A stretch of 64,000 nucleotides of DNA from Dolichospermum sp. DET69 (GTDB lineage: Bacteria; Cyanobacteriota; Cyanobacteriia; Cyanobacteriales; Nostocaceae): positions 3,327,501 to 3,391,500 of the forward strand of contig CP070233.1 in NCBI GenBank assembly GCA_017355425.1. Reading direction: 5' to 3'. The position numbers and the translations under genes are program-made. This document shows positions 8,827 through 57,993 of this stretch, piece by piece (the first letter of the stretch is position 1; each line of letters starts with the position of its first letter). The notes beneath the pieces were generated by a model. It had not been told where the DNA came from. It ran no database searches and worked only from the letters and a program-made list of their open reading frames with translations.

Positions 8827-9570
8827 CTATTTTAATAGTTCTTGAAACCGCTGTTCACCACGTATTTTATCAAAATCTGGGTCGCTTTTCACTAAGTTTT
8901 GATATTTTTGGGGGACAAGCTGCATGGCTTTTTTGAGGTTTTCAATTGCTAGTTCTAGATTATTTTGCAAGGCATAATTACAAGCTTTGTTATAATATGC
9001 TTGATGTAAATTAGGCTGGATAGTGATTGCTTGATTATAGGATGCTAAAGCTTCTTTGTAGCGTTGTAATTTGGTTAAAGCAATTCCTCGATTAATCCAA
9101 GCTTCATGTTTATTTGATTGAATAGCGATCGCTTCATCATAAGATTTTACCGCTTCTTTGTAATTTCGCAAAGCTGTTAAAGCATTACCGCGATTATACC
9201 AAGCTTCATCTTGATTTGGGCGAATAGCGATTGCCTTATCATAAGATTCTACAGCTTCTGGATACTGTTGCAAAGCAATCAAAGCATTGCCGCGATTTAC
9301 CCAGGTTTCCGCACTATCAGTTTTAATAGCTATGACCTGATTATATATTCCTAAAGCTTCTTGATAACGATGGGTATCTAACAAACCATTACCTTGTAGT
9401 AATAAGTTTTCTGCTTTTTGACTATCTTGTACTTCTGAAATCAGTTGATTAACATTGCTTTCCTGAACAACTTGTTTGGTATTATCTGATGAAGAATTTA
9501 CCAAATCACTACAGCCAATTGCCAAAAAACTGATTAAACTAGAAGCAATTAATTGTCGCCAAACTACCAT
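8827..9570 (-). CDS. TPR-repeat lipoprotein
   Basis: I choose the ATG at 9570, since the next residues (VVWRQLIASSLISFLAIGCS) look like a lipoprotein signal ending in a Cys lipobox; an ORF start 24 bases upstream is possible. The mature protein holds five or more tetratricopeptide repeats with a 34-residue period (for example AETWVNRGNALIALQQYPEA, DEAWYNRGNALTALRNYKEA, HEAWINRGIALTKLQRYKEA). The repeats are protein-protein interaction modules; partner unknown. About 248 residues, monocistronic. Confidence 0.85.
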   Translation of the reverse strand: MVVWRQLIASSLISFLAIGCSDLVNSSSDNTKQVVQESNVNQLISEVQDSQKAENLLLQGNGLLDTHRYQEALGIYNQVIAIKTDSAETWVNRGNALIALQQYPEAVESYDKAIAIRPNQDEAWYNRGNALTALRNYKEAVKSYDEAIAIQSNKHEAWINRGIALTKLQRYKEALASYNQAITIQPNLHQAYYNKACNYALQNNLELAIENLKKAMQLVPQKYQNLVKSDPDFDKIRGEQRFQELLK

Positions 9571-22558: not shown

Positions 22559-23605
22559 GTTTCAATCCCTAATAGGAAGTAAGTGAAATTGCAATTTGTT
22601 CTACAGTGATTTCCGAGAGTTCAGAAATGTTTCAATCCCTAATAGGGAGTAAGTAAAATTGCAATGTGGTTTTTGTAAATACATGAAACCTACTGAACCG
22701 TTTCAATCCCTAATAGGGAGTAAGTAAAATTGCAATTTTCCGGGACATCTAAAATCACCGCTGAAATTGTGCAGTTTCAATCCCTAATAGGGAGTAAGTA
22801 AAATTGCAATTGTACAATTCCTGGTTTTATCAGATATGGAACTTGTTTCAATCCCTAATAGGGAGTAAGTAAAATTGCAATGTTCCGTTGATTTTTACCC
22901 ATGTTTCAGGGGGACTCTTTGTTTCAATCCCTAATAGGGAGTAAGTAAAATTGCAATTAGTTTCATCGCTCAAGTGATTATCATAGTTACGAGAAGTTTC
23001 AATCCCTAATAGGGAGTAAGTAAAATTGCAATCTGGAATATCGCCCTGAGAAATATGCCCAAATCGAGTTTCAATCCCTAATAGGGAGTAAGTAAAATTG
23101 CAATTTTTTAAAAATTCCTAAATTAATTTAAACAAAAGTTTCAATCCCTAATAGGGAGTAAGTAAAATTGCAATTTTATTAGCTGCGCCTGTGTTCCAAT
23201 TTGTTTTAGTTTCAATCCCTAATAGGGAGTAAGTAAAATTGCAATGAGCTTGTAGCCTTTGGATTTGCAATGGTATTCAGCGTTTCAATCCCTAATAGGG
23301 AGTAAGTAAAATTGCAATTTCAGCAGGTGCAGAACAACGGAAGTGGGAAGAATCTGTTTCAATCCCTAATAGGGAGTAAGTAAAATTGCAATATTTTGAT
23401 AACTATATGCAGCAGTTGACTATTGAGCGTTTCAATCCCTAATAGGGAGTAAGTAAAATTGCAATCTGATTTCTTCGGGTTCTTCAGTGAATACAGGTGT
23501 TTCAATCCCTAATAGGGAGTAAGTAAAATTGCAATGGAGAGGGGCTGCTTTCCTTGTTTCTACAATATGTTTCAATCCCTAATAGGGAGTAAGTAAAATT
23601 GCAAT
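22559..23605 (-). CRISPR. Type I-D CRISPR array, 15 repeats and 14 spacers
   Basis: Repeats are 37 bp, on the plus strand GTTTCAATCCCTAATAGGGA then GTAAGTAAAATTGCAAT; spacers are 33-39 bp. Starts: 22559, 22629, 22700, 22774, 22845, 22921, 22996, 23068, 23138, 23209, 23282, 23356, 23429, 23499, 23569. Read on the minus strand each repeat ends GGGATTGAAAC, the usual 8-nt crRNA handle, and contains a CCCTA-T-TAGGG hairpin for Cas6. The degenerate repeat is at 22559 (AGGAAG, GTGAAATT changes), the leader-distal end, so transcription runs right to left from a leader next to cas2. No spacer obviously matches the rest of the window. Confidence 0.97.
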
Positions 23606-28319: not shown

Positions 28320-28739
28320 ATGACAGTTGATAATTCTCGTGAAGCAGTAGCACTCACTAAAAAGTTAGAAGCCAGTTTACCAATTAAAGTCAAGGCAGCA
28401 AAAGAATTATTGAAAATGCTGAAGACAAGAGGAGACATAATAAATCCAGCTAAAGAATTTGAAGTTGATTGGGTAGCTTATTCTGGAGATGAAGGCGGGA
28501 TTATGTGCAGATTGGTCAGCAAAAACGATAATCCCGAAGATGAAGATAAAGCACTATATATAGTGTCTATTACCCATCTCAAAATAGATCCAAATCATCC
28601 CCATGCAGAAGAAATAGCAACTTATCAACGTGAGAGAAATCGCAAGTTAATGTTACAAAATCGTGGTAGTTTGATGACTGAATTAATGCCTTCACGCTCT
28701 CCTAAAACAAATAAGAGCGGTAAAGGTTTTGGAAAATAA
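28320..28739 (+). CDS. Unknown 139-residue protein encoded on the opposite strand within the cas locus
   Basis: This gene runs against the cas genes, sits between cas6 and csc1, and its stop directly abuts the csc1 stop. The protein is charged, with a helical N-terminus (REAVALTKKLEASLPIKVKA), a central segment VDWVAYSGDEGGIMCRLVS, and a basic low-complexity C-terminus (SRSPKTNKSGKGFGK). Composition and phase look like a real gene. I do not recognise the family. Position suggests regulation or modulation of the I-D system, but that is inference. Confidence 0.7.
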   Translation: MTVDNSREAVALTKKLEASLPIKVKAAKELLKMLKTRGDIINPAKEFEVDWVAYSGDEGGIMCRLVSKNDNPEDEDKALYIVSITHLKIDPNHPHAEEIATYQRERNRKLMLQNRGSLMTELMPSRSPKTNKSGKGFGK

Positions 28740-29447
28740 TTAACTCCGAAAACGGTATTGCATTTGTTTAGGAAGGTTTACATTTTTGATATCATCAAAA
28801 TAGTAATATTCCCCTTGCATTTGCACATTTTGAATGAGACTTACTGGAGGCATATTTACCACATCATAGCTAATAACTTGATTAGTAAACATGACATCTA
28901 AAGGGTTTAAAGGATGAGTGCAGGTAAATAAATCAGTTTTGATTTTTGGTTGTGGTAATTTCTCAACCGTAATTTCTGCTTTACTCATCCATTTACCTAA
29001 ACGAATCCATTTAGGTAATTTGATCTCTTTTTGAGAAATTAGAAAGAACTCAAATTGACTTTCTGGTGCAATTTCCTTTGCTCTACCAAAACTGGGAATA
29101 TTCTTTTGGGTTTTCTCCATTTCTACATGGTAGTTATTATTTGCATATTTCCATGTATTGAGAATAGATGAATGCCTCAGAGAACGAGCCGGAGTTATAT
29201 AAATTCCTTGTTCATTTAAAGGGGTTAAATGTGCTTCATATTTTGGCACTTGTTCGGGGCAAAAATAGCGATAGGAATCTTCTTCAGCAACGGTAGTTGA
29301 GTAGATTTGACTATCAACTAAACCAAGGGCATAACAGAGGGCGTAATTATGAACTATTGCTTCTGTTTCGTAAAGTCTGCCGATTTCACGGGTGGCAAAA
29401 TAGAGGCTATCATGTAGTTCTAATTGACAACGGTAGATAAACACCAT
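28740..29447 (-). CDS. csc1: Type I-D CRISPR-associated protein Csc1 (Cas5d)
   Basis: A 235-residue Cas5-type subunit. It starts VFIYRCQLELHDSLYFATRE and contains YETEAIVHNYALCYALGL and SLRHSSILNTWKYANNNYHV, characteristic of Csc1. It forms the foot of the I-D Cascade complex that binds the crRNA 5' handle. It follows csc2 by 5 bases, so the two are coupled. Confidence 0.94.
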   Translation of the reverse strand: MVFIYRCQLELHDSLYFATREIGRLYETEAIVHNYALCYALGLVDSQIYSTTVAEEDSYRYFCPEQVPKYEAHLTPLNEQGIYITPARSLRHSSILNTWKYANNNYHVEMEKTQKNIPSFGRAKEIAPESQFEFFLISQKEIKLPKWIRLGKWMSKAEITVEKLPQPKIKTDLFTCTHPLNPLDVMFTNQVISYDVVNMPPVSLIQNVQMQGEYYYFDDIKNVNLPKQMQYRFRS

Positions 29448-29452
29448 TTTTG

Positions 29453-30496
29453 TTACTCCGCTTTAGCATTTTTACCTGCTTTTGGTTTTGCGGTTTTTGC
29501 TTCTTCAGACTTACCTTTAATATGCTTTTTAGCATAAGCCTTAGCTTCATCATTAGCTTGTTGTAAAAGTGATTTAATTCCTGCTTCGTTATTTGTGAGG
29601 TTTTTAACTTCATTGACTAGAGGTATAAAAGCATCACCAATTAAATCTGTATGCACAATAAATTCATCATTCATTAAATTCTCAATTGCACTTTTAGCAG
29701 CAGTAATTACATCATCTTCATCTAAAGGATCGGGTGATTTGAGAGTATTATTTGCTTTCATTTGATCGTATATGGCTTGAGTCCAACGCAGATTACTGGT
29801 AATTTCTCCATCAGCAAAAATCACACCGACTAATTCATTCCTAACGCGACCTGTGCGGGTTGTTTGTGCGCCATAATGACGAGTTCTGAGAATGTTATTA
29901 AAAACATAAAGAAAACTAGCTTCTGTGGGGTCTTTCAGTGTTACAATACTAGGAAAGAAAACTTGTGGTCTAATGTGATCTTGTTGATTAATTCTGCTAG
30001 TAACTTCACCAGCTTTAGAACCACTTTCTCCTTTAGAAGCCATTGTACCATTTTCAAAAGGAGCATTCAGAGTAAAGGTTTCATGAGATTCATCAAAAGC
30101 TGTAATTGAAAATGCCGTATCTACCACTACTTTTGATTTTTCTGAACCAGAATCACCAATAGCAAAACCGTAAATTATACAATCAGGATTATCCATTGCA
30201 AAAGATACGTTATATTCACATTCTTCTGCTGTCATGAATTCATATTTACGGAGTAATTCTCTACCTACTAATCTTTCTGGTGTTGACTGTTTACGTTTGA
30301 ACATTGAAAGACGGCTAATGGTATTTTTATCTTTGACTCCAGCCCTTACCCGTGCTTTATTAAGTTCGCTATCTGTTTGAAATAAAGGATAAGATTCAGT
30401 AATGCGAACGGTGAGAAAGTGGGCATATTTTCCCATTGGTTTATAGGGAATTTCTGATTGAAATAATTTAGCGTCAACGGTTTTTAAGAGTGTCAT
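29453..30496 (-). CDS. csc2: Type I-D CRISPR-associated protein Csc2 (Cas7d)
   Basis: A 347-residue Cas7-type backbone subunit. DSELNKARVRAGVKDKNTIS, RLVGRELLRKYEFMTAEECE, RINQQDHIRPQVFFPSIVTL and RHYGAQTTRTGRVRNELVGV match Csc2. Several copies coat the crRNA. The C-terminus is Lys/Ala-rich (KTAKPKAGKNAKAE). It lies between cas10d and csc1. Confidence 0.95.
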   Translation of the reverse strand: MTLLKTVDAKLFQSEIPYKPMGKYAHFLTVRITESYPLFQTDSELNKARVRAGVKDKNTISRLSMFKRKQSTPERLVGRELLRKYEFMTAEECEYNVSFAMDNPDCIIYGFAIGDSGSEKSKVVVDTAFSITAFDESHETFTLNAPFENGTMASKGESGSKAGEVTSRINQQDHIRPQVFFPSIVTLKDPTEASFLYVFNNILRTRHYGAQTTRTGRVRNELVGVIFADGEITSNLRWTQAIYDQMKANNTLKSPDPLDEDDVITAAKSAIENLMNDEFIVHTDLIGDAFIPLVNEVKNLTNNEAGIKSLLQQANDEAKAYAKKHIKGKSEEAKTAKPKAGKNAKAE

Positions 30497-30588: not shown

Positions 30589-33500
30589 TTACGGTTGATT
30601 ATCGTCATCTTCAGATTTAGATTTTTCATCTTTTCCAGCATTTTCCTTATCATCTTCTAAACGGTAAAGAAATTCACAGGTATCTCGAATTAGATTCAAT
30701 TGACGGCCTGCTAACCGGGCGCGATCGCTCTTAAAACAACCGTCAAAAACATCCTCTACAAAATACCTTGCAAACTCTAAAACAGCTTGTCTTTCATCTT
30801 CTCTCTGATTACGCTTAAATACCCAACGTCCTTCAGCAGTGGAAGAATTTACCCGCTCCATTAGTTTAAAAATCTTTCCTGCTACAGCCATAATTAAAGT
30901 TTCACCATTAAATACACTTAAATCAGCATTAAGAATTGTTTCCGCAGCAATATCAATGGGTTTTAAAACAGCATTAGCTTTAGGGTTAAATTTTTTATTT
31001 GCCAGATAAAAACGGCGATAAAGTTCTGTCAATTTCTTTGGATGATTCAAAGTTGATTTTTCTTCCACAATTAATTTCTCCTCAGTTGAATCAAATTTTG
31101 CATAAGGGTCAAAACAAGGGTAAAAATGATAGGTGTAAAGTTTGATTTTTTCAATCCTTGCTGTTTCAACTTTTTGATTACGCACCCATTTATTAAGATA
31201 AGCAAAGACATGAAGAGGACTGGTTTCAAAATCCTTTGCTAATTCAGTAAATTTACCCCAATTAGCATCATAACCAGTCTTTCCTTGTCTAGCATTCACA
31301 TCTAAATGAATAGCATAAGCAGCAGTTAAAACATTTAAAGGTGCAGGATATTGGATACCGTACTCTTTCCAGCCTTCCAAGATATAATCAAGACGAAATC
31401 TATCTCTTTTCACCAAAGTACGGAAAGCATGAGGCGCACTATCAAGAAATACCGTTTCTTCAAATTCTGTACCATCATTAAATGGGGGAATAGGAGACTC
31501 AGAAACTACAGTTTTCACATCTAAAATCATCGGAAAAGCAAATGCTAACCAACTCGGCATTATCCAAGATTCTGTATCAGTGCTATCTCTTCCTGGTGGT
31601 AAAGCCATGAAGTAAAATGTTAAAGGCTGATCTTCAGGATAAGAAAGTTTAAATGTGCGGTCTTTTTCACTATCTAAATTTTCATCAATTAAGAAACTAT
31701 CGACACTTTGATAATTTTCTTTACCTAAATCTACCTGTAAATCTTTACTAATGAAATGATTACGGATGCTAGTATCAAAACGAGTTTGAGCAATGTTCAT
31801 GTAAGCTTTTTGTAAAAACTTATTAGTTTCTGGGGTAAAGTAATAAGTTGGATAAAAATAGAGATAGCGATATTTCCCATCTTCAAATCTTTTTCCTACA
31901 GCTTGAGTTTGATTCATGAGAATTTGTCTCAGCATCATCTCTACACCCGCAATACTAGAAATATTGCGTTTAGCGTTAGAACCTCCTAACATTTGTTTAT
32001 TTGTATAAACTTGAGGTGTAAATAAAACTGCTGATTCCATCTGTTCAGTGACAGTATAAGCTGAATGAGAAATTGAGCAAATTAATTGTTTACCTCTCCC
32101 TGATTTTTTTGCAGCATTATAATTAGTCAACTCATTGATAAAATTATCAATTTCCGTGGTGACAGATGTTAGTTTATTGGTATGAGGTAACATGACAACT
32201 CTTGATACCCACAACCTTAAATCATCCCAACCATCAGGTAATTGATACTGTGCCAGAATTGGGGAAATTAAATCTGTTAAGTAATAAATTACCTGTTGAC
32301 AATTTTCGCGGACATCTTCAATACCTGGGTGTTTTTCTAAATATTTAGCCGCTAGATAATACCATTCATAAGGTACACCTCCTGTATTACCTTTCAGTTT
32401 TTGTTCTTTCAAACTTTCATTAATGCGTTGAATTTCTCGAACCTGCGGTAAATATTCTGTTAAATTCCAAAATTCCGCGACTTTGTGAGTTAAATCAAAA
32501 TTTGGAACTTCTGGTAATTTTTTATCTTTCTTCCTTTCAGCTTCAATTTTATTAACTATTTCATCCCAAATTTTGCGAGTAATTAAATCTCCAAATTCGG
32601 CAATTTGATCAATACGGATACTATCATCAAACTTAAAATCATAATCAGGAGATAAAACATTCTGTTTTTGGAACTTCACTAAATTCTCACTACGACTTTT
32701 AGCAACAGAAGGTTTATTAGTATTGAGAATGCGTAAAGTCGCATCTAAAGCCACTTGCATTAAAGCAGGAGATTCAAAAAATAGGTTGTAATATTCGGCA
32801 TATTTCATCCCTTTACCATCTCTACCAAATCCCGTTTGTCTGAGTTTTAATTGACCTGCACAAAGGGATTTAATTTTATTAACTACCAAATCTGGTAAAG
32901 TTTCAGGTGAAATAGGAGGAGCATCCCGTAACGCTAGATAAATTACCCCTGTTGGTAGATATAATAACGGTTGATAATATGTATTTTCAGCAGTATTTAA
33001 GTTAGTGTGAGCTTGAATTACAGCATTATTAACAACGTTGGTTAAAACGCCTCTATTTTCTGCAATGTGATGATAGGTGAATTTCAATTTACCATCACTG
33101 AGACTGTGAAGAATTCCATTTAATGTCTGATTTTCCGCATCTTGAGGATGTTTGATAATTGAAGAAAGTAAATCAGCTAAACAAGTTAAATCAGCAAGAC
33201 ATATCAGGATATTATCATCAATTAATGGGTGTAACCCATACTCAGAAAGATTGAGATTTGTATCATTCCGACGCTGGGCATTATAGGCAATGAATAACAA
33301 ATCATCTCGATATTCTAGCCATGCGTCTGGTTCATCAGGACTGACAAATTTATCAATTCCTAATTCGCAAACCATCACATCTATAATTTCCCTATGTTCA
33401 TCTACAGATAATTTACGAATGTCTTGTTCTCTATCTTGACAAATTGCTTTATATTTATCTGGCATTTTTAGAAATAGCCGATAATCAAATTTTTCAAAAT

Positions 33501-34065
33501 CATGGAGAATAAACCCAGCAATTAATAGTCGCCTTTCTTGTTCTTGAATAACTCTTCTTGCAGTTGTATCAAGTTTCTTTAGACGACGTTCTATTAAATT
33601 AGCTGGTAGTAACCCATTGAGTAAATGAGTATTTAGGGATTGATCACCTGCATTTCTACGATCAATTTTTTTCGGTTCTTTTAATTTTTGATTTCCTCCT
33701 AAATTATTTTGATGGTAATTTTCTATTTCTTCTTGTTTCTTTTTATCGAGGTAATCAAAAAATTTACCACCTTTAGCTGTGACTCCAATTGCTACCCGTA
33801 AAAGATTAGGTAAAATGTAATCACTAAATTCTTGCATTATTAAATCATGATTATTTTCTGATTTAATTGCATTTTGCAGTAACTTGAGTGTGAGTATTGC
33901 TCCTGATTTTGTTTCAACTTTTAGATTAGATGTATATTCAAAATCAGAATCATCCCCAGACATCCAATCATCATCTGATAATTCAGGGTTTGAATCATCA
34001 GTTATTTCCACTTCTAAAAGTGATAATTGTTGATGATCATTTGATTCTTTACTTTTTTTAGCCAT
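30589..34065 (-). CDS. cas10d: Type I-D large subunit Cas10d (Csc3) with HD nuclease domain
   Basis: 1158 residues from the ATG at 34065. An acidic N-terminus (about 20-48) is followed by an HD nuclease domain with His in NTHLLNG (about residue 150) and the HD pair in ILHDFEKFDYRLF (about 191-192). In type I-D the nuclease is on Cas10d and the helicase Cas3' is separate, as here. No intact GGDD cyclase motif was seen, as expected for Cas10d. The C-terminus is highly charged. It starts only 16 bases after the DUF1016 nuclease stop, so it shares its transcript. Confidence 0.95.
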   Translation of the reverse strand: MAKKSKESNDHQQLSLLEVEITDDSNPELSDDDWMSGDDSDFEYTSNLKVETKSGAILTLKLLQNAIKSENNHDLIMQEFSDYILPNLLRVAIGVTAKGGKFFDYLDKKKQEEIENYHQNNLGGNQKLKEPKKIDRRNAGDQSLNTHLLNGLLPANLIERRLKKLDTTARRVIQEQERRLLIAGFILHDFEKFDYRLFLKMPDKYKAICQDREQDIRKLSVDEHREIIDVMVCELGIDKFVSPDEPDAWLEYRDDLLFIAYNAQRRNDTNLNLSEYGLHPLIDDNILICLADLTCLADLLSSIIKHPQDAENQTLNGILHSLSDGKLKFTYHHIAENRGVLTNVVNNAVIQAHTNLNTAENTYYQPLLYLPTGVIYLALRDAPPISPETLPDLVVNKIKSLCAGQLKLRQTGFGRDGKGMKYAEYYNLFFESPALMQVALDATLRILNTNKPSVAKSRSENLVKFQKQNVLSPDYDFKFDDSIRIDQIAEFGDLITRKIWDEIVNKIEAERKKDKKLPEVPNFDLTHKVAEFWNLTEYLPQVREIQRINESLKEQKLKGNTGGVPYEWYYLAAKYLEKHPGIEDVRENCQQVIYYLTDLISPILAQYQLPDGWDDLRLWVSRVVMLPHTNKLTSVTTEIDNFINELTNYNAAKKSGRGKQLICSISHSAYTVTEQMESAVLFTPQVYTNKQMLGGSNAKRNISSIAGVEMMLRQILMNQTQAVGKRFEDGKYRYLYFYPTYYFTPETNKFLQKAYMNIAQTRFDTSIRNHFISKDLQVDLGKENYQSVDSFLIDENLDSEKDRTFKLSYPEDQPLTFYFMALPPGRDSTDTESWIMPSWLAFAFPMILDVKTVVSESPIPPFNDGTEFEETVFLDSAPHAFRTLVKRDRFRLDYILEGWKEYGIQYPAPLNVLTAAYAIHLDVNARQGKTGYDANWGKFTELAKDFETSPLHVFAYLNKWVRNQKVETARIEKIKLYTYHFYPCFDPYAKFDSTEEKLIVEEKSTLNHPKKLTELYRRFYLANKKFNPKANAVLKPIDIAAETILNADLSVFNGETLIMAVAGKIFKLMERVNSSTAEGRWVFKRNQREDERQAVLEFARYFVEDVFDGCFKSDRARLAGRQLNLIRDTCEFLYRLEDDKENAGKDEKSKSEDDDNQP

Positions 34066-34081
34066 TTTCTGCACCTAATAT

Positions 34082-35101
34082 TTATTCAAATCCTTCTAAT
34101 AATTTAGCAACTTGTTCTGGATCTGGAAGTTGATTTTTTAGTTCTTGTGGTAATTTAGAAACTATTTGGTAAGTTGCCACACCAATTGGTTTATTAGATT
34201 CCTTCAGTGCATATTCAACAATAGTTCTCTGTTTGGATTTACAAAGAATAATACCAATAGAAGGATTTTCCTCTGGTAGTTTTACCGTGTTATCTAAAAC
34301 GGCTAAATAAAACTGCATTTTGCCCACATATTCAGGTAAAAATTTACCAATTTTTAATTCTATTGCTACCAAACACTTTAAACGCCGATGATACAATAGG
34401 ATATCTATAAAATATTCTTCATCATCAACTTCTAAGCGATATTGACTACCAATAAAGGCAAATATACCACCCATTTCTTGTAAGAATGGTTGAATTTTTG
34501 CTAAAATTGACTCTTCTAGCTGTCGTTCGCTGTGTTCATCTGCTAATTCTAAAAAATCAAAGGTATATTCATCCTTAACTGCAAGTTTTAACTGGTTACG
34601 TATCTCTACTGAAATATTTTGATCAAAATTAGTTTGATTAAGCAGAGTTTTTTCATAAGTTTGATTTTCAATTTGGTGAATTAAAACATTTTTTGTCCAT
34701 CCGAATTTTCGAGTCATTCTAATATAAAACTCTCGTTCTAAGTCATCTTTACACTTTTCTAAAATGACTATATTATGAGTCCATCCAATTTCTGCAACCA
34801 ATGGTTGCAGTTTTTCATTTTGGCTATATGTGACGTAAAAATTCCGCATATTCCAGATATTGCGAGCAGAAAAACCACTAATACCAGGAAACTCTGTTTG
34901 TAAGTCTTTTGCTAATTTTTCTACTACTGATTTACCCCAAATAGCGTCCTCTTGTTTAATGACAATTATCTGCCCAATATCCCAATACAAGTTAATCATT
35001 TCCCGATTAACTGCCTTTAATGCTTCATACTGGGCTGACCGAATCCGTTGTTGTACTTCCATAAGTAGATGTGTGTATTCGTCAGAAATGGAATTACTCA
35101 T
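34082..35101 (-). CDS. DUF1016-family PD-(D/E)XK nuclease embedded in the cas operon
   Basis: A 339-residue protein. The N-terminal half is the DUF1016 (YhcG-type) helical domain: LYWDIGQIIVIKQ, GWGKS-like IWGKSVVEKLAKDLQTEFPG and FSARNIWNMRNFYVTY. The C-terminal half is a PD-(D/E)XK nuclease with FIDILLYHRRLKCLVAIELK (Asp then ExK). This family is usually found beside restriction-modification or as orphan nucleases, and is not a recognised I-D component. Here it lies between the 81-residue gene (12-base gap) and cas10d (7 bases to the ORF limit), in the same direction. It may add DNA cleavage to the system or be an independent defence gene captured by the operon. Confidence 0.88.
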   Translation of the reverse strand: MSNSISDEYTHLLMEVQQRIRSAQYEALKAVNREMINLYWDIGQIIVIKQEDAIWGKSVVEKLAKDLQTEFPGISGFSARNIWNMRNFYVTYSQNEKLQPLVAEIGWTHNIVILEKCKDDLEREFYIRMTRKFGWTKNVLIHQIENQTYEKTLLNQTNFDQNISVEIRNQLKLAVKDEYTFDFLELADEHSERQLEESILAKIQPFLQEMGGIFAFIGSQYRLEVDDEEYFIDILLYHRRLKCLVAIELKIGKFLPEYVGKMQFYLAVLDNTVKLPEENPSIGIILCKSKQRTIVEYALKESNKPIGVATYQIVSKLPQELKNQLPDPEQVAKLLEGFE

Positions 35102-35113
35102 AATGACAATATT

Positions 35114-35359
35114 TCAATCTTTCCAGTCAAAATTATTTTTTTCTTCTAGTTCCTGATTTCTACCAATTAGATAATCAAATTGACCAATTTTTCTGAAGAA
35201 TAAGTTCATTGATTCCTCCATTTCTTCAATCCGACTGTCATGCTCTGAGATTCGATTGTCTTGAATGAGGTTATGCTGTTGCTGCGCTTTAATTCGATCA
35301 ATTAGATTATTGATGACATAACGCAATTGGTCTAAGGGGTCAGTGTTATGGCTTTGCAT
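35114..35359 (-). CDS. Small coiled-coil protein upstream of the DUF1016 nuclease
   Basis: 81 residues. The middle is a heptad-rich helix (LIDRIKAQQQHNLIQDNRIS, EHDSRIEEMEESMNLFFRK). There is no signal peptide or known motif. Its stop is 12 bases before the nuclease start, so the two genes are probably coupled and may interact. Family not recognised. Confidence 0.6.
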   Translation of the reverse strand: MQSHNTDPLDQLRYVINNLIDRIKAQQQHNLIQDNRISEHDSRIEEMEESMNLFFRKIGQFDYLIGRNQELEEKNNFDWKD

Positions 35360-35516
35360 CTAAGTTTGTCCTGCTTTAAAGGATTACTTAGAGCCTAGCA
35401 TATTCTTTTTATTTAGACCAGTAAATTTTAGTCAAAAAATTTTTTTAACAAAATATCTGTGAATAATGATTCTGTGACCATAAATAAAATAAATCAAATT
35501 TTCATGCTATCCTTAG

Positions 35517-35625
35517 TTCGTAGGGTCAAAATAAACCCATTAGGGATTGAAACACAGACTCATCATTCACTGATGCTGACTCTACCCTGCTCACAAAGCA
35601 GCGAACCCCTATTAGGGATATCAAC
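35517..35625 (+). other. Degenerate two-repeat CRISPR-like unit inside the cas operon
   Basis: On the plus strand (opposite to cas), 35517-35553 ends CCCATTAGGGATTGAAAC, nearly identical to the last 19 bases of the array repeat in its crRNA orientation. The second half-repeat, 35589-35625, ends CCCCTATTAGGGATATCAAC. The two GGGAT positions are 72 bp apart, the period of the array (37-bp repeat plus 35-bp spacer), leaving a 35-base spacer (35554-35588). The 5' parts of both repeats have diverged. The second repeat overlaps the cas3' stop codon. It may be an array relic or a CreA/CreR-like guide RNA gene. Confidence 0.6.
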
Positions 35626-37837
35626 ACTGCGCTATCCATATCTCATCCCCTTTACTCTTAAACCAATGTGTCAGGGTGTCTAGCAATAGTGCAGACTGCC
35701 CAAAGGCGATACAGTATGGAGGTGTATTATCTAAAACACTATACTGGTCACTAATAGGGTAAATCTGAAAGTGCATGGGTAATTTTCCTTGCTGACGTAC
35801 TCTTTCCACAGGAAAAGGCAATACATAACTAACTAATGCCTGTTTTTTCAATTGTTTGTTAATTTCACTAATCCAATAATTTGCAGGTTGCCAAACTTGA
35901 ATATCTAATAATACTTGTACATCCCAAGTATCAGCAAAAGGTTTTAAATCCCCAGGATAAGTAAATTTCCAATCTAGTCTTTCTTCACGATAGCGAATTA
36001 ATTTCATAAACCCTAGACATTCTTTAAATCTACTTTTGGGAATGGCTGTATCTGTGCGTTCTGAAATTTCTTTGCGACGACGTTCAAATTCTGTAGCTGT
36101 GATTGGTTCAATTTCTAAGTTGCTGAGAATCCCTGGTAAATCGTAGGTTTTGAATTTATCAGTTTCATTTGGTTCTGTAGTGTCATAAATTCCGCACAAT
36201 AAAGAACTTTTACCGCGAAAACTCACAGCTTCTTCTAAAATAGGATTTCCTTTATCTTTTCCTGAAAGTTCGTGCCATTTTTCTTCCCATTCTTTACTAC
36301 GGACAAACGCGGCTTTAAGATTGGCTTTTCTTTTGTCAGTACCAAAAACTATCTCGCAATCTTTCTTAAGTGCTTCCTGACTACCTGCTGCATATTGTTG
36401 TTTAATATTAGGATGTCCCAACTGTCGAACCAGTCGCATAGATTGAACAACTCCCCACTTAAAGTAATAACCTGTAAAATCATTGATTTTGCGGTATTTA
36501 TATCTAATTTGTTCATGAAAAAATGGACGTTCATAAACTTCACCTAATTTCAAAGGTGGTGCTTCATGATTTTCATCTTTTTCAAAAAGCCTTTTCACTA
36601 AAAAATCTGGAACAAGTGCATAAGCAGTAAATTCATTAAAATTAATCTGCTTTCCATCCCTTTCATAACTATCATGTCTTCCCAGTCTACCTAAACGCTG
36701 GATAAAATTACCCGCATCTGCTGATTCAAAAAACAAAAAGTTGATTTTGAAATCTACACCAACATCAATAGTGCTAGTTCCTAAAACTAAATCAGCATCA
36801 AAAGATTTTTCTTTTGTTTTCTTACCAGATAACCCAGTATTTTCTTCAACTGTAAAATTATACGTTTTCAGAAAAGTTGTGAAAAACTCTGTTAACCGTT
36901 TTACAGCAGCAATGGAATTAAGAATAATTGCACCTTTGCTACCTGGATGCTGTCGTAAATGATTTAATATCAATTCTGCATTATCTTTTAACCAAGTTTC
37001 AGAAGTTTTAGGTGTAGATTCTAAACTAACAAACTGTAATAATATTTCCCCGACTACTTTTCGCAAATCTTGTTTTTTTAGCTGCTGAAATTCATCAATG
37101 CTATTGGGAAAGTAATATTTTTTCTCTTCTAGTGGGTTAATTTCATGACAGCGAAAATCAGCCGCTTTAAGTTTCTCAATTAACTGGGAATTGGGTGTAG
37201 CAGAAAGAAATAAAAACTTTTTACGCCTATTGGTACGACGAATTAACAACATTGTGTTAATTACGCTGGCAATTTGTGGAGATTGAAATACATGAAATTC
37301 ATCAAATATGATAACATTAAAACGTTTATCTATTCTATTCCAGAGTTTATCAGGATTATCTTTGTACAGTAAATATGCACCATAATGAAGATAGTGAAAA
37401 ATATCAGGGTTGGTAAGTAAAATTTCAGATTGTGCAGCGCGAGTTTCTAAAGCTACTCCTTTTTTTAAGTTTTCTTCTTCAGCATAAATTTCTAATTCTT
37501 GTCCACTTAAACGATTAACACGGGGTTCATGTTCAGGTTTAAACTTCTCAATATATCCCCTAATTTGTTTCTCTTGATCTCTAGCAAGTTCATTTGTAGG
37601 ATATAACCCCAAAACAGGAGAATGTCTTTGTAAAATGTCTAGATATCCAGCTAAACTTTTACCATCACCTGTTATTGCAGTGTTGAAAACTACGTCAATA
37701 TTTGGATCGCGCAAGGCTTTTAAAGTCTCTACTTGATGCCAAGATAAAGACCAATTATCTGGTAACTTAACCCCATCAGGTGTGGGGACTGTTTGAGAAT
37801 AAACAGCTTTGAGTTTAATACTGTAATTTTCTGACAT
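35621..37837 (-). CDS. cas3': Type I-D CRISPR-associated helicase Cas3'
   Basis: A 738-residue superfamily 2 helicase without an HD domain. Motif I is TGDGKS (about 57-61), motif II DEFH (179-182), motif III LSATPNS (about 211-217), motif VI QRLGRLGRHD (about 395). The arrangement matches I-D Cas3', which unwinds target DNA for the Cas10d HD nuclease. It is the first gene of the operon cas3'-81aa-nuclease-cas10d-csc2-csc1. About 260 bases with the repeat-like unit separate it from the 81-residue gene. Confidence 0.93.
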   Translation of the reverse strand: MSENYSIKLKAVYSQTVPTPDGVKLPDNWSLSWHQVETLKALRDPNIDVVFNTAITGDGKSLAGYLDILQRHSPVLGLYPTNELARDQEKQIRGYIEKFKPEHEPRVNRLSGQELEIYAEEENLKKGVALETRAAQSEILLTNPDIFHYLHYGAYLLYKDNPDKLWNRIDKRFNVIIFDEFHVFQSPQIASVINTMLLIRRTNRRKKFLFLSATPNSQLIEKLKAADFRCHEINPLEEKKYYFPNSIDEFQQLKKQDLRKVVGEILLQFVSLESTPKTSETWLKDNAELILNHLRQHPGSKGAIILNSIAAVKRLTEFFTTFLKTYNFTVEENTGLSGKKTKEKSFDADLVLGTSTIDVGVDFKINFLFFESADAGNFIQRLGRLGRHDSYERDGKQINFNEFTAYALVPDFLVKRLFEKDENHEAPPLKLGEVYERPFFHEQIRYKYRKINDFTGYYFKWGVVQSMRLVRQLGHPNIKQQYAAGSQEALKKDCEIVFGTDKRKANLKAAFVRSKEWEEKWHELSGKDKGNPILEEAVSFRGKSSLLCGIYDTTEPNETDKFKTYDLPGILSNLEIEPITATEFERRRKEISERTDTAIPKSRFKECLGFMKLIRYREERLDWKFTYPGDLKPFADTWDVQVLLDIQVWQPANYWISEINKQLKKQALVSYVLPFPVERVRQQGKLPMHFQIYPISDQYSVLDNTPPYCIAFGQSALLLDTLTHWFKSKGDEIWIAQC

Positions 37838-38110
37838 ACCCTCAATAACTGATTTTAATTTCTCGCACTATCAATACTGTTGCCAAAATAAGAGCCTTGA
37901 TAATTTTTGGCAAAAACGGCAAAAGTAAGCATACATAAGCGTTTCGAGGAAAAGGTAATTTAGAATCTAAAACCCTTATCTACCCCGTCAATACATTTAA
38001 AAAATCCTTGTCGGAAACCTTTAAGCAATTTTTAAGGCTGATTGTTTTTGCCAAGCAAGAGTGAGAAACGGGAGTTCATGGTTAAAGCATTATCATCTCA
38101 CCCTCGTAAT
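37838..38110. promoter_or_regulatory. Gene-free region upstream of the cas operon
   Basis: This 273-bp AT-rich stretch should hold the promoter for cas3'. It contains short direct repeats of GGCAAAAACGGCAAAA type near 37910. No clear -10/-35 pair was chosen. Confidence 0.35.
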
Positions 38111-39163
38111 TTAGCAATAGTATTGCTTAACAATTCTCATTGCTTCCATTTTCCAAACTTCCAATTCTGGTAACTTCCAACTGACTTTTTTAAGTTGTTG
38201 ATCCTGAGAATAAAATTTGAGAAAATTTTGCCATGATACTATAGAATCTTGTTGTTTTCCCTCTGCTGCTTGCACTTGTGCTAATAAACAATAAGCCGGA
38301 GCGTAATTATCTTCCAATTTCAGACAGACGAGTAAATGGTGTTTTGCTTGTTCATAATCATTTTGCTGAAAATATGCCCAAGCAAGATTTTTGTGTAATG
38401 TTAGTTTAACTATTGGATCTTTCACCTTTGGTAAAATTTGTTCAATCATTGTCACAGCCTCTGCACTGTTTCCCTGGAGAATTTGCAATCGAGCTAAGTT
38501 ATTAATAGCAGCATCAGCAGCCCGATTTTGATATTTAATAGCAATTTGATAATGATGACAAGCTCTTTCTAAATCGTCTAATTTTTCATAAGCTGATCCT
38601 AAATTATAGTGAGTAGGTCCATGATTTGGGTTAAATTCAATTGCTAATTCCAGATGCGATATAGCATTTGCAAAATCATGATTTAGATAGTGTCTATGTC
38701 CTATAAAATTAAGAGATTTAGCAATTTCTTTCCTTTCTTGAGGAATTAAATTAATCCTACTTAGCAACTGTTTGAAATTTTCTAATTTGGACTCATTAAT
38801 GGATAGCAGATTTAAGATATATTCGATAACATTTACATTGTATCTATCTGGTTCTGCTTCTATTTTTTTTGTAAATGGAGCTTGCTTTCCCGTCAGTAAT
38901 TCAGGTTTATATTTAGCAAATAGTGCCACTAGTTCTGAGCGTTTGTAACGACGGTTATCACTAGGTTCATTATTTAGTCCAAATTCATAACATATTCTTT
39001 CAATATATTTTCTCACAGATGCTTCTCCAATGCCCATGGATTCAGCTATATCTCCATCTGTTACACCTGCTAGTATCTTTTGCAATACTTCTTTGCGTCT
39101 ATCTGTCAGGTTATTGAATACGCGCTCAAACTCTTTTTGATTCATTTCGCTTCTTAATAGCAT
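38111..39163 (-). CDS. HTH-TPR protein upstream of the cas operon
   Basis: A 350-residue protein. The N-terminus (about 8-75) is a LuxR/sigma-70-region-4-like HTH: LTDRRKEVLQKILAGVTDGD then IAESMGIGEASVRKYIERIC. The rest holds tetratricopeptide repeats (GHRHYLNHDFANAISHLELA, THYNLGSAYEKLDDLERACH, AWAYFQQNDYEQAKHHLLVC). The same HTH type starts many cyanobacterial STAND proteins. It runs in the same direction as cas3', 273 bases upstream, so it may regulate or be cotranscribed with cas. Its target is unknown. Confidence 0.78.
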   Translation of the reverse strand: MLLRSEMNQKEFERVFNNLTDRRKEVLQKILAGVTDGDIAESMGIGEASVRKYIERICYEFGLNNEPSDNRRYKRSELVALFAKYKPELLTGKQAPFTKKIEAEPDRYNVNVIEYILNLLSINESKLENFKQLLSRINLIPQERKEIAKSLNFIGHRHYLNHDFANAISHLELAIEFNPNHGPTHYNLGSAYEKLDDLERACHHYQIAIKYQNRAADAAINNLARLQILQGNSAEAVTMIEQILPKVKDPIVKLTLHKNLAWAYFQQNDYEQAKHHLLVCLKLEDNYAPAYCLLAQVQAAEGKQQDSIVSWQNFLKFYSQDQQLKKVSWKLPELEVWKMEAMRIVKQYYC

Positions 39164-46651: not shown

Positions 46652-46702
46652 AGTTGCTAAATCCTTAACATACTCTTGATTTAGTCTAATATAACAAGTC
46701 AG

Positions 46703-46846
46703 TTGTCAATTGTCAGTTGTCAGTTGTCAATTGTCAGTGGTCAGTTGTCAGTTGTTAGTTGTCAGTTGTTAGTTGTCAGTTGTTAGTTGTCAGTTGTCAG
46801 TTGTTAGTTGTTAGTTGTCAGTTGTTAGTTGTCAGTTGTCAGTTGT
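46703..46846. repeat. STRR2-type heptanucleotide tandem repeat (TTGTCAG)n
   Basis: About 20 imperfect units of TTGTCAG/TTGTTAG/TTGTCAA. TTGTCAG is the STRR2 unit described in heterocystous cyanobacteria. A short (ACCTATT)n tract follows at 46874-46898. No gene in this gap. Confidence 0.85.
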
Positions 46847-46900
46847 AAGGGGAAAGAAGGAATTAAAAATATTACCTATTACCTATTACCTCTATTCATA

Positions 46901-56118: not shown

Positions 56119-57633
56119 ATGGTTAATCAACTTTATTATGGAGACAATTTAGAAGTTTTAAGACGTTATATTAGAGATGAGTCCGTTGACTTATGTTATA
56201 TTGATCCTCCTTTTAATTCTAAACGCAATTATAATCAAATTTATAATAATGTTGGTTCAGAAGATAAAGCGCAAGCGCAAGCATTTATTGATACTTGGGA
56301 ATGGGATGATCACGCTATTCATGGACTAGATGAAATTCTGACTAATTATCATGGTTTATTTACTCAACAATGTATTGCTTTGATTGCAGGTTTAAGCAAT
56401 GTTTTAGGAAAAGGAAGTTTACTTGCTTATTTAGTAAGTATGACTTTAAGAATAACAGAAATTCATCGAGTTTTAAAACCTACTGGTAGTTTTTATCTAC
56501 ATTGTGATCCTACTGCAAGTCATTATTTAAAGTTAATCTTAGATGCTGTTTTTTCTTCTCAGGGTGGAGAGTTTCAAAATGAAATAATTTGGTGTTACTC
56601 CATTGGTGGTAAAAGTAAAAAAAGATTTGCTAGAAAACATGATGTAATTTTGTTTTATACTAAAAGCAGTAAAGATATACATACCTTTAATCATAAAGGA
56701 GCCTCCATTGCTAGAAAACCTAATTCTCATATGAAAGTAGGAACAGATGAAGACGGCCGTCAATATCAAGAAAAAAAAGATAAAAAAACAGGAAAAATTT
56801 ATAGATATTATTTAGATCAGGGTAAAATAGCAGAAGATTATTGGACAGATATTGAAACTCTTAATAGAGAAGAAAAAGAACGTTTAGGTTATCCCACACA
56901 GAAACCAGAGGCATTATTAGAAAGAATAATTAAAGCAAGTTCTAATGAAAATGATATAGTATTAGATGCCTATTGTGGATGTGGTACAACCGTTGTAGTT
57001 TGCCAAAAATTAGAGCGACAATGGATAGGAATTGATATTACTTATCAAAGTATTAGTTTAGTCTTAAAAAGATTAGAAGATAGCTTTGGTAAAGAGGTTT
57101 TAGAAACTATTAAACTTCATGGTATTCCTAAAGATATAGAAAGTGCAACAGCATTAGCAAATAAAGCAGATGATCGCACTCGTAAAGAATTTGAAAAATG
57201 GGCAATTTTGACTTATACTAATAACAGAGCCGTAATTAATGCTAAAAAAGGTGCAGATAAAGGTGTAGATGGAATTGTTTATTTTCAAGGTGATAAAAAT
57301 GAACCAGAAAAAGTAATCTTTCAAGTAAAATCTGGTAAAGTCAAATCGGGAGATATTCGGGATTTATTAGGAACAATGACCATAGAAAACGCTAGTATAG
57401 CCATATTTATAACTTTAGAAAATCCTACTAAAGAGATGTTAAAAACTGCTAAATCTGCTGGTTTTTATCAGAGTAAATATATGAGTCATAGTTGTGATAA
57501 AATTCAGATTGTTACAGTTGAAGATATCATTGAAAATAAACAAAAATTAAATATTCGTTTAAGTTATGAAGTTGTTAAAAGTGCTGAAAAACAAAAAGAA
57601 GTGAAAGTTAATCAAATAGAGTTAGATATTTAA
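56119..57633 (+). CDS. Adenine DNA methyltransferase fused to an Mrr-like nuclease domain
   Basis: 504 residues from the ATG at 56119 (a TTG lies 12 bases upstream). The first two thirds are an N6-adenine/N4-cytosine methyltransferase of the beta class: catalytic DPPFNSKRNY near residue 30 precedes the AdoMet motif region LDAYCGCGTT (about 283-292). The C-terminal about 130 residues resemble an Mrr-type restriction domain: KGADKGVDGIVYF then VIFQVKSGKVKSGDIRDL (Asp ... QxK active-site pattern). This would be a single-chain restriction-modification enzyme. Recognition sequence unknown. The 3' end is part of a tandem duplication. Confidence 0.83.
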   Translation: MVNQLYYGDNLEVLRRYIRDESVDLCYIDPPFNSKRNYNQIYNNVGSEDKAQAQAFIDTWEWDDHAIHGLDEILTNYHGLFTQQCIALIAGLSNVLGKGSLLAYLVSMTLRITEIHRVLKPTGSFYLHCDPTASHYLKLILDAVFSSQGGEFQNEIIWCYSIGGKSKKRFARKHDVILFYTKSSKDIHTFNHKGASIARKPNSHMKVGTDEDGRQYQEKKDKKTGKIYRYYLDQGKIAEDYWTDIETLNREEKERLGYPTQKPEALLERIIKASSNENDIVLDAYCGCGTTVVVCQKLERQWIGIDITYQSISLVLKRLEDSFGKEVLETIKLHGIPKDIESATALANKADDRTRKEFEKWAILTYTNNRAVINAKKGADKGVDGIVYFQGDKNEPEKVIFQVKSGKVKSGDIRDLLGTMTIENASIAIFITLENPTKEMLKTAKSAGFYQSKYMSHSCDKIQIVTVEDIIENKQKLNIRLSYEVVKSAEKQKEVKVNQIELDI

Positions 57634-57993
57634 TCACTACTAAGCAGGTTAGCTTGACGGAATGAAACCCAGCATTTAACTTAATTTGCTTCTTAACCCA
57701 CGAAGGTGGGTTTTGTCTGTGTAGCCGGTTTTTATCAGAGTAAATATATGAGTCATAGTTGTGATAAAATTCAGATTGTTACAGTTGAAGATATCATTGA
57801 AAATAAATAAAAATTAAATATTCGTTTAAGTTATGAAGTTGTTAAAAGTGCTGAAAAACAAAAAGAAGTGAGAGTTAATCAAATAGAGTTAGATATTTAA
57901 TCACTACTAAGCAGGTTAGCTTGACGGAATGAAACCCAGCATTTAACTTAATTTGCTTCTTAACCCACGAAGGTGGGTTTTGTCTGTGTAGCC
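57460..57993. repeat. 267-bp tandem duplication of the methyltransferase gene end
   Basis: Copy 1 is 57460-57726 and copy 2 is 57727-57993. They start GGTTTTTATCAGAGTAAATA and end TTTTGTCTGTGTAGCC, and differ at only two readable positions; one creates a stop (CAA to TAA) in copy 2. Each copy holds the last 58 codons of the gene plus the downstream AACCCACGAAGGTGGGTT hairpin. Confidence 0.9.

Follow-up and report, generated by a model that had tools for sequence, protein, structure and literature searches.

Short crRNA-like guides of the kind considered here are already known as CreA, CreR, CrePA and mini-arrays, and a survey by Shmakov et al. (2023) is said to describe crRNA-like elements or mini-arrays that consist of standalone repeats or pairs of repeats, with a spacer partly complementary to the promoters of cas or cargo genes. 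In Halobacterium hubeiense, according to the portion of the source relied on here, positions 1–5 and 7–11 of the CreA guide pair with the target and positions 6 and 12 are uninvolved (PMC8501985), and the CreA repeats are described, again in part of the source, as a psiR1 that keeps its handle and a psiR2 that has the stem without the handle (PMC9458426). Type I-D is reported, in the excerpt cited, to be the most prevalent type I system in cyanobacteria (PMC11903412). The comparison set out below indicates that a cyanobacterial type I-D locus very probably carries a unit of this kind, namely a CreA/CreR-type guide through which the I-D Cascade would repress a small gene that is exchangeable, and possibly also the cas10d operon behind it. 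A sequence-only reading of the DNA had proposed a CreA/CreR-like guide unit, and this proposal gains support from conservation, from PAM-flanked partial complementarity and from the way in which guide, target and gene are exchanged together.

The window (the whole 64,000-nucleotide stretch of Dolichospermum sp. DET69 that was analysed) belongs to a 6.04-Mb genome in two contigs, whose nearest named relatives by cas3' comparison are Dolichospermum circinale and Anabaena catenula. Its minus strand carries a type I-D operon comprising cas3' (the I-D helicase, 35621..37837, from the ORF list and family models), an 81-aa ORF (35114..35359), a YhcG/DUF1016 PDDEXK nuclease (34082..35101), cas10d (Csc3, 30589..34074), cas7 (Csc2, 29453..30496) and cas5 (Csc1, 28740..29447), the last four assigned by family models; the genes by which a type I-D locus was recognised (cas10d, cas3', cas7 and cas5) were all detected. 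The main CRISPR array, found by repeat analysis at about 22559–23605 on the same strand and running in the direction of the cas operon, has a 37-nt repeat that reads ATTGCAATTTTACTTACTCCCTATTAGGGATTGAAAC on the minus strand. Four further features of the window were recorded in passing. A 139-aa ORF lies on the opposite strand within the cas operon, behind cas5 (28320–28739, plus strand), and locus L180 has a 138-aa ORF, also on the opposite strand, in the matching place (8891–9307). A segment of ~255 bp upstream of cas3' (about 37870–38126) is 92.6 % identical to the Anabaena sp. 90 plasmid NC_019428 and also resembles parts of many Nostoc plasmids, as a dispersed element. A 14-bp unit resembling GTCAGTTGTTAGTT is repeated in tandem at about 46684–46850, and two 267-bp copies, 99 % identical, lie head-to-tail at 57457–57990.

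Against the operon, on the plus strand, lie two degenerate CRISPR repeats recognised by comparison with the array repeat, psiR1 (35517..35553, TTCGTAGGGTCAAAATAAACCCATTAGGGATTGAAAC) and psiR2 (35589..35625, GCTCACAAAGCAGCGAACCCCTATTAGGGATATCAAC), and between them a 35-nt spacer-like guide, psiS (35554..35588, ACAGACTCATCATTCACTGATGCTGACTCTACCCT). The 8-nt handle of psiR1 (ATTGAAAC) is intact; psiR2 keeps the stem and has an altered handle (ATATCAAC). The ends of the two repeats are spaced by 72 bp, and the final bases of psiR2 overlap the cas3' stop codon. Each of these points (the lone spacer, the two degenerate repeats 72 bp apart, the intact first handle and the overlap with the cas3' stop on the opposite strand) had been read from the letters beforehand, and all are confirmed. 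This is the arrangement of CreA-type units, in which a spacer-like guide close to cas genes is bordered by one or two degenerate repeats. When the window without its array was scanned for sites that agree with the last 20 nt of the repeat at 15 or more positions, psiR1 (17/20) and psiR2 (16/20) were the only ones, compared with a mean of 0.84 sites at this threshold, and of 0.08 at 16/20 or better, in 100 dinucleotide shuffles. Rfam gave a sub-threshold match to CRISPR-DR60 over 35517–35553, reported on the minus strand (E 0.0039, 27.6 bits against a gathering score of 45). By eye, a possible extended −10 element of the guide gene can be placed at 35505..35513 on the plus strand (TGCTATCCT), and similar bases are seen by eye in loci L002 and L003. 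When 291 genomes of the order were searched at the DNA level with the unit as query, at least three full-length-like matches emerged (its own genome, G229 and G111), the other matches listed being short and repeat-like; in a plasmid search with a query that included the unit, none of the places listed, from 20 of 23 records, covers it.

Comparison with related I-D loci, which the sequence-only reading had proposed as a check, showed the unit to be conserved. The set comprised 96 loci, namely the window, 18 of 19 named loci (L020 was left out) and 77 of 100 listed places, the window being one more of the 100 and those left out being G565, G394, G303, G322, G040 and G484:C140 (partial, or at about 40 %) and 16 weaker ones (at most 39 %); all loci were oriented by cas3', and all 96 cas3' sequences are distinct. 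A repeat-like element antisense to cas3' and close behind it is present in 78 loci, and in 60 of the 96 such an element ends no more than 10 bp from the cas3' stop. Seven of the 78 are mere stubs near the stop, which leaves psiR1 units directly behind cas3' in 71 loci (L105 and L143 having been added, and one weak L110 repeat candidate removed, by hand), and a displaced repeat at about 750–785 bp in L095, L132 and L147 brings the total to 74 of the 96 cyanobacterial loci. The unit is absent from the other 22, and the same 22 also have no small gene. Two repeats are present in 58 of the 71 units, 65–117 bp apart and most often at 72 bp (15/58), and a single repeat in 13. Compared with the 37-nt repeat of its own locus (35 loci), psiR1 is 38 % identical over nucleotides 1–17, 83 % over the stem and 94 % over the handle; for psiR2 (30 loci) the values are 43, 93 and 84 %. 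In all 35 loci psiR1 is fitted better by its own repeat than by the mean of the other repeats, and in the 7 loci whose array handle reads ACTGAAAC the same C occurs in psiR2 in 7/7 and in psiR1 in 4/7. The parts of the repeat predicted to be required for processing and loading are, by this comparison, retained, and they track the Cas system of their own locus.

The spacer of the unit matches DNA only a short way off. With GTN-flanked sites scored against the spacer and positions 6, 12, 18 and 24 disregarded, an intergenic site 116 bp upstream of the 81-aa gene ranks first of the 6262 sites scored in the window; it consists of the PAM GTC (35478–35476) and protospacer positions 1–17 (35475–35459) on the minus strand (35459..35478, ACAGAATCATTATTCAC), of which 15/17 match the guide, with mismatches at 6 and 11. 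The search for spacer complementarity that had been suggested earlier accordingly leads to this PAM-flanked intergenic DNA (score 22.5) and away from the region 37838–38110 that had been named as one place to look, where a target upstream of cas3' was rejected at a best score of 14.5 (37838–38130). Within the 6-Mb genome, the intergenic site is the only place that fits a target pattern derived from the window's own guide–target pair with one mismatch at most; 13 places fit that same pattern with two mismatches, the guide itself among them. The motif GTCACAGAGTCAGAATTCAG was also seen at ten places in this genome.

The pairing recurs across the loci. For 63 of the 78 loci with any psiR, the top GTN site of the whole fetched locus falls in the 600 bp upstream of psiR1, and in the 130-bp zone beside psiR1 the best site reaches P<0.01 against 1000 spacer shuffles in 60 of the 71 units (25 of 30 spacer-cluster representatives). 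By comparison, array spacers attained the unit's own score in the same zone in 30 of 1016 cases, and spacers from foreign units in 113 of 2059. The 60 matched targets are intergenic and 34–101 bp distant, with an adjoining GTH PAM (GTT 32, GTC 26, GTA 2 and GTG 0); given that 20 % of the zone sites are GTG, its absence has P about 1.6e-6 over the 60 loci and 0.004 over the 25 representatives. GTH is the PAM of the Microcystis I-D system, as stated in the part of the source drawn on (PMC10212523). Each of the three displaced units, which fall outside the set of 71, likewise has an adjacent target (P 0.002 in one and 0/500 shuffles in the other two). Over the 60 loci, positions 1–5 match in 95–100 %, position 6 in 32 %, 7–9 in 95–98 %, 10–11 in 73–75 %, 12 in 33 %, 13–16 in 77–83 %, 17 in 48 % and 18–28 in 12–47 %. 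The CreA-type seed is therefore seen across the loci, and in the window itself positions 1–5 and 7–10 match and 11 is mismatched. Positions 6 and 12 and those past about 17 are close to chance, the profile that a type I Cascade would be expected to show if it bound its target but did not cut it. Many family B loci (see below) have two sites, in tandem or inverted, at a lenient threshold.

Eleven of the 71 units do not reach P<0.01, and they are of several sorts: in L002 and L003, both closely related to the window, the target is shortened by a 1-nt deletion; the target region has gone from L008; a credible target is absent from L014, L092 and L105; L018, L124, L128 and L157 are borderline (zone P 0.01–0.034); and L093 has a strong site further off than the zone. 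A sigma-70 scan did not show a sense promoter at the target, with 5 of 57 loci at P<0.05 against shuffles and a median P of 0.55; in L130, L137 and L141 promoter hexamers overlap the seed, as single anecdotal cases. The 3' half of psiS had seemed by eye to hold a hairpin or terminator, but this was rejected as no better than shuffles (P≤0.05 in 6/71 units and 3/30 representatives, and in 17/205 array spacers). At the flipped positions an A was noted in the target, not in the guide, in 21/25 representatives at position 6 and 20/25 at position 12; at position 18, likewise non-pairing, the target has A in 15/25, the zone background being 32 % A.

The first gene past the target is one of four small-protein families. 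Family A gives 25 HMM hits and is the first gene in 23 loci, including the window, where the 81-aa ORF (assigned from the ORF, the family HMM and dN/dS) is presumably the first gene under the target; family B, with a helix–turn–helix (HTH), gives 28 hits, family C 11 and family D 6. Since the first family B HMM also caught DUF433- and nucleotidyltransferase-like proteins, as judged by eye, a stricter one was used. Families A–D were found in 68 of the 96 loci, and the unit is present in all 68; the displaced units stay beside the small gene, away from cas3'. Profile comparison of A, B and C revealed no mutual similarity, and no Pfam family was found above cut-off for the representatives (two of A, one each of B, C and D). 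The family B representative matches a PADLOC HTH model (2.9e-34) and that of family D the candidate-defence model PDC-S14 (5e-9). Median dN/dS is 0.43 for A, 0.32 for B, 0.41 for C and, from one pair, 0.17 for D, values consistent with protein-coding genes under purifying selection, next to which a separate RNA toxin may conceivably lie.

Six units have no family HMM hit (L140, L141, L127, L085, L092 and L139). Assigned by eye, and outside the HMM counts, L140 and L141 have a family A-like gene and L127 a family B gene past an insertion sequence, on another contig; the small gene of L085 is another HTH, and in L139 the target precedes cas10d with no small gene seen between. In the genome of L127 and L180 (G444), the insertion sequence splits the guide target from the HTH gene, the two halves being on different contigs. 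Family C occurs in 4 of 194 genomes, every time at an I-D unit locus of the 96-locus set, and family B in 24 of 194, six of which have no I-D cas3' hit. In five of six non-I-D family B loci fetched, no repeat-like handle was found in the 500 bp upstream of the gene. In L174 an antisense repeat-like GGAATTGAAAC was noticed upstream of the HTH match, at a distance of about 220 bp.

Guide and small gene also change together. Families A–D are never mixed within one spacer cluster, six of the seven multi-member clusters being pure and the seventh consisting of 24 family B loci and L127, and on the cas3' tree the A–D labels require a minimum of 26 changes (all six labels 47, compared with a shuffled mean of 56), this being a FastTree tree in which 28 of 93 inner branches are weak. 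Because clusters keep to one family and the labels change so often on the tree, guide, target/operator and small gene are, by these comparisons, swapped jointly and frequently, the site and the repeats staying constant. L014 combines a C-like start of the spacer with a family A gene and lacks a target; it is perhaps a recent mismatched exchange.

Considering these observations, we suggest the following mechanism. The psiR1–psiS–psiR2 unit would be a crRNA-like guide gene lying against the cas operon, whose transcript may be processed by Cas6 and loaded into the I-D Cascade by means of the kept handle. The guide can pair over ~16 nt at the GTH-flanked intergenic site, with the flipped bases at positions 6 and 12 left out, the match itself being visible in the sequences. 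Since pairing stops at about position 16, Cascade would occupy the site without cleaving it and would keep the small gene from being transcribed, and the block may extend to co-transcribed genes, that is, the nuclease and perhaps cas10d. As the target lies between two divergent genes, the guide may also repress itself. Loss or inhibition of Cascade would release the small gene, and guide, operator and small gene form a cassette that is swapped whole at this site, as the comparison of loci shows. Since the unit follows the small gene even when displaced, repression of the small gene is the favoured selected function, effects on cas10d being possible. The sequence-only reading had suggested the 81-residue gene or the nuclease as a possible guarded partner; that the 81-residue gene is likely the controlled partner stands, in view of conservation, the upstream target and joint exchange, and guarding proper is one of two readings of what that control is for.

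These two readings, guarding and autoregulation, share the guide mechanism. In the first, of the CreTA/CrePA type, the small protein is harmful or an alarm, the guide is its antitoxin and the cell depends on an intact I-D Cascade; we give this an almost even chance. It would account well for the close linkage of guide and gene and for the exchange of small-gene families, and many of the gaps hold toxin–antitoxin-like neighbours, among them a nucleotidyltransferase fragment that matches Pfam NTP_transf_2 and, by eye, HEPN-, DUF433- and DUF5615-like genes. The anatomy is also CreA-like, as far as the cited parts of the sources describe it (PMC8501985, PMC9458426). However, no toxin family was matched by the A–D representatives in Pfam (two of A, one each of B, C and D), or in NCBIfam or PADLOC (one of each), and family B resembles a DNA-binding HTH. 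We tentatively extend this reading to a proposal whose prospects we put a little below that of guarding itself: the site behind cas3' may be an I-D exchange slot for at least four small-protein families, each with a matched guide and operator, silenced by Cascade and derepressed on its loss or blockage, and hence a diverse, unnamed set of CRISPR-guarded alarms or toxins.

In the second reading, of the CreR type, the guide limits the effector operon (cas10d–cas7–cas5 and so on), the small gene being either a passenger or itself a regulator of cas genes. This we regard as a serious possibility, if rather a doubtful one. It is in keeping with the position of the small gene at the head of a same-direction stretch that runs into cas10d, with the L139 target before cas10d, and with the five non-I-D loci (L174–L177 and L179) in which the family B HTH gene comes first, before a roughly 900-aa gene named cas8-like by eye; CreR is, moreover, on record for types I-B, I-E and V-A in the part of the source cited (PMC13131331). 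The target is upstream of the small gene that precedes cas10d, and directly before cas10d only in L139. Within the 96 loci, however, the unit tracks the small gene (68/68, and the displaced units too) and not cas10d, which also lies behind cas3' in 20 of the 22 loci that have no unit (the contigs of the other two end earlier), and the small-gene families swap along with their guides.

Degenerate repeats with one spacer left might otherwise be read as an ordinary CRISPR array that decayed, the alternative allowed by the sequence-only reading, but this is highly improbable and to us untenable, because the unit is conserved in place and strand across relatives (71/96 loci, with repeats 65–117 bp apart), stem and handle are selectively retained, the spacer matches local DNA with a PAM and a 6-nt periodicity, and a search for 20-mers present in three or more copies detected no ordinary array at the unit site in the 96 loci. 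CRISPR-associated Tn7-like transposons (CASTs) use atypical guides. I-D CASTs are known from cyanobacteria, going by partial accounts, but that the unit is the homing guide of one is scarcely credible, since the window holds I-D effector genes with an array close by, inspection by eye of the ORFs of 18–52 kb turned up no Tn7-like gene, and the target is a few dozen base pairs off, unlike an attachment site.

Returning to the guide-directed repression of the small gene, we see several consequences. If the I-D effector routinely represses by means of a built-in guide, deletion or inhibition of cas genes should switch on a specific small gene, which would be a direct test between the guard and autoregulation models. 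If the mechanism is right, it would also provide a list of unannotated candidate proteins and, for I-D-based repression without cutting, a source of natural operators.

In the literature searched, a set distinct from the Shmakov survey, no I-D unit of this kind was recognised, and no description was found of four features: a I-D setting in which the PAM is GTH, a guide gene always antisense at the end of cas3', pairing that reaches nucleotide 16, and the exchange of four families with their guides. With CreR (Liu, 2023, via PMC12737573 and PMC13131331, as excerpted) it shares a crRNA-like RNA with a partial match before cas-operon genes; CreR is named there for I-B, I-E and V-A, whereas the present guide goes with a small gene between cas3' and cas10d and not with cas genes. 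With CrePA, in which the protein toxin CreP is repressed by CreA (PMC12737573, in part), it shares a crRNA-like guide that adjoins its protein-coding target gene; CreP is typically KilA-N, a family that Pfam did not find in the representatives tested here. The likeness to CreA, in haloarchaeal I-B and other systems, extends furthest in the sections cited (PMC8501985, PMC9458426): the psiR1–psiS–psiR2 or single-repeat anatomy, a 5' handle kept in psiR1 and, in the window, not in psiR2, PAM-adjacent pairing at 1–5 and 7–11 with 6 and 12 free, and a target beside the neighbouring gene. In contrast to CreA as described there, the system is I-D with a GTH PAM and pairing to nucleotide 16, the guide gene is divergent from the target gene and overlaps cas3', and the adjacent gene, rather than a known small RNA toxin such as creT, is a conserved protein ORF drawn from four exchangeable families.
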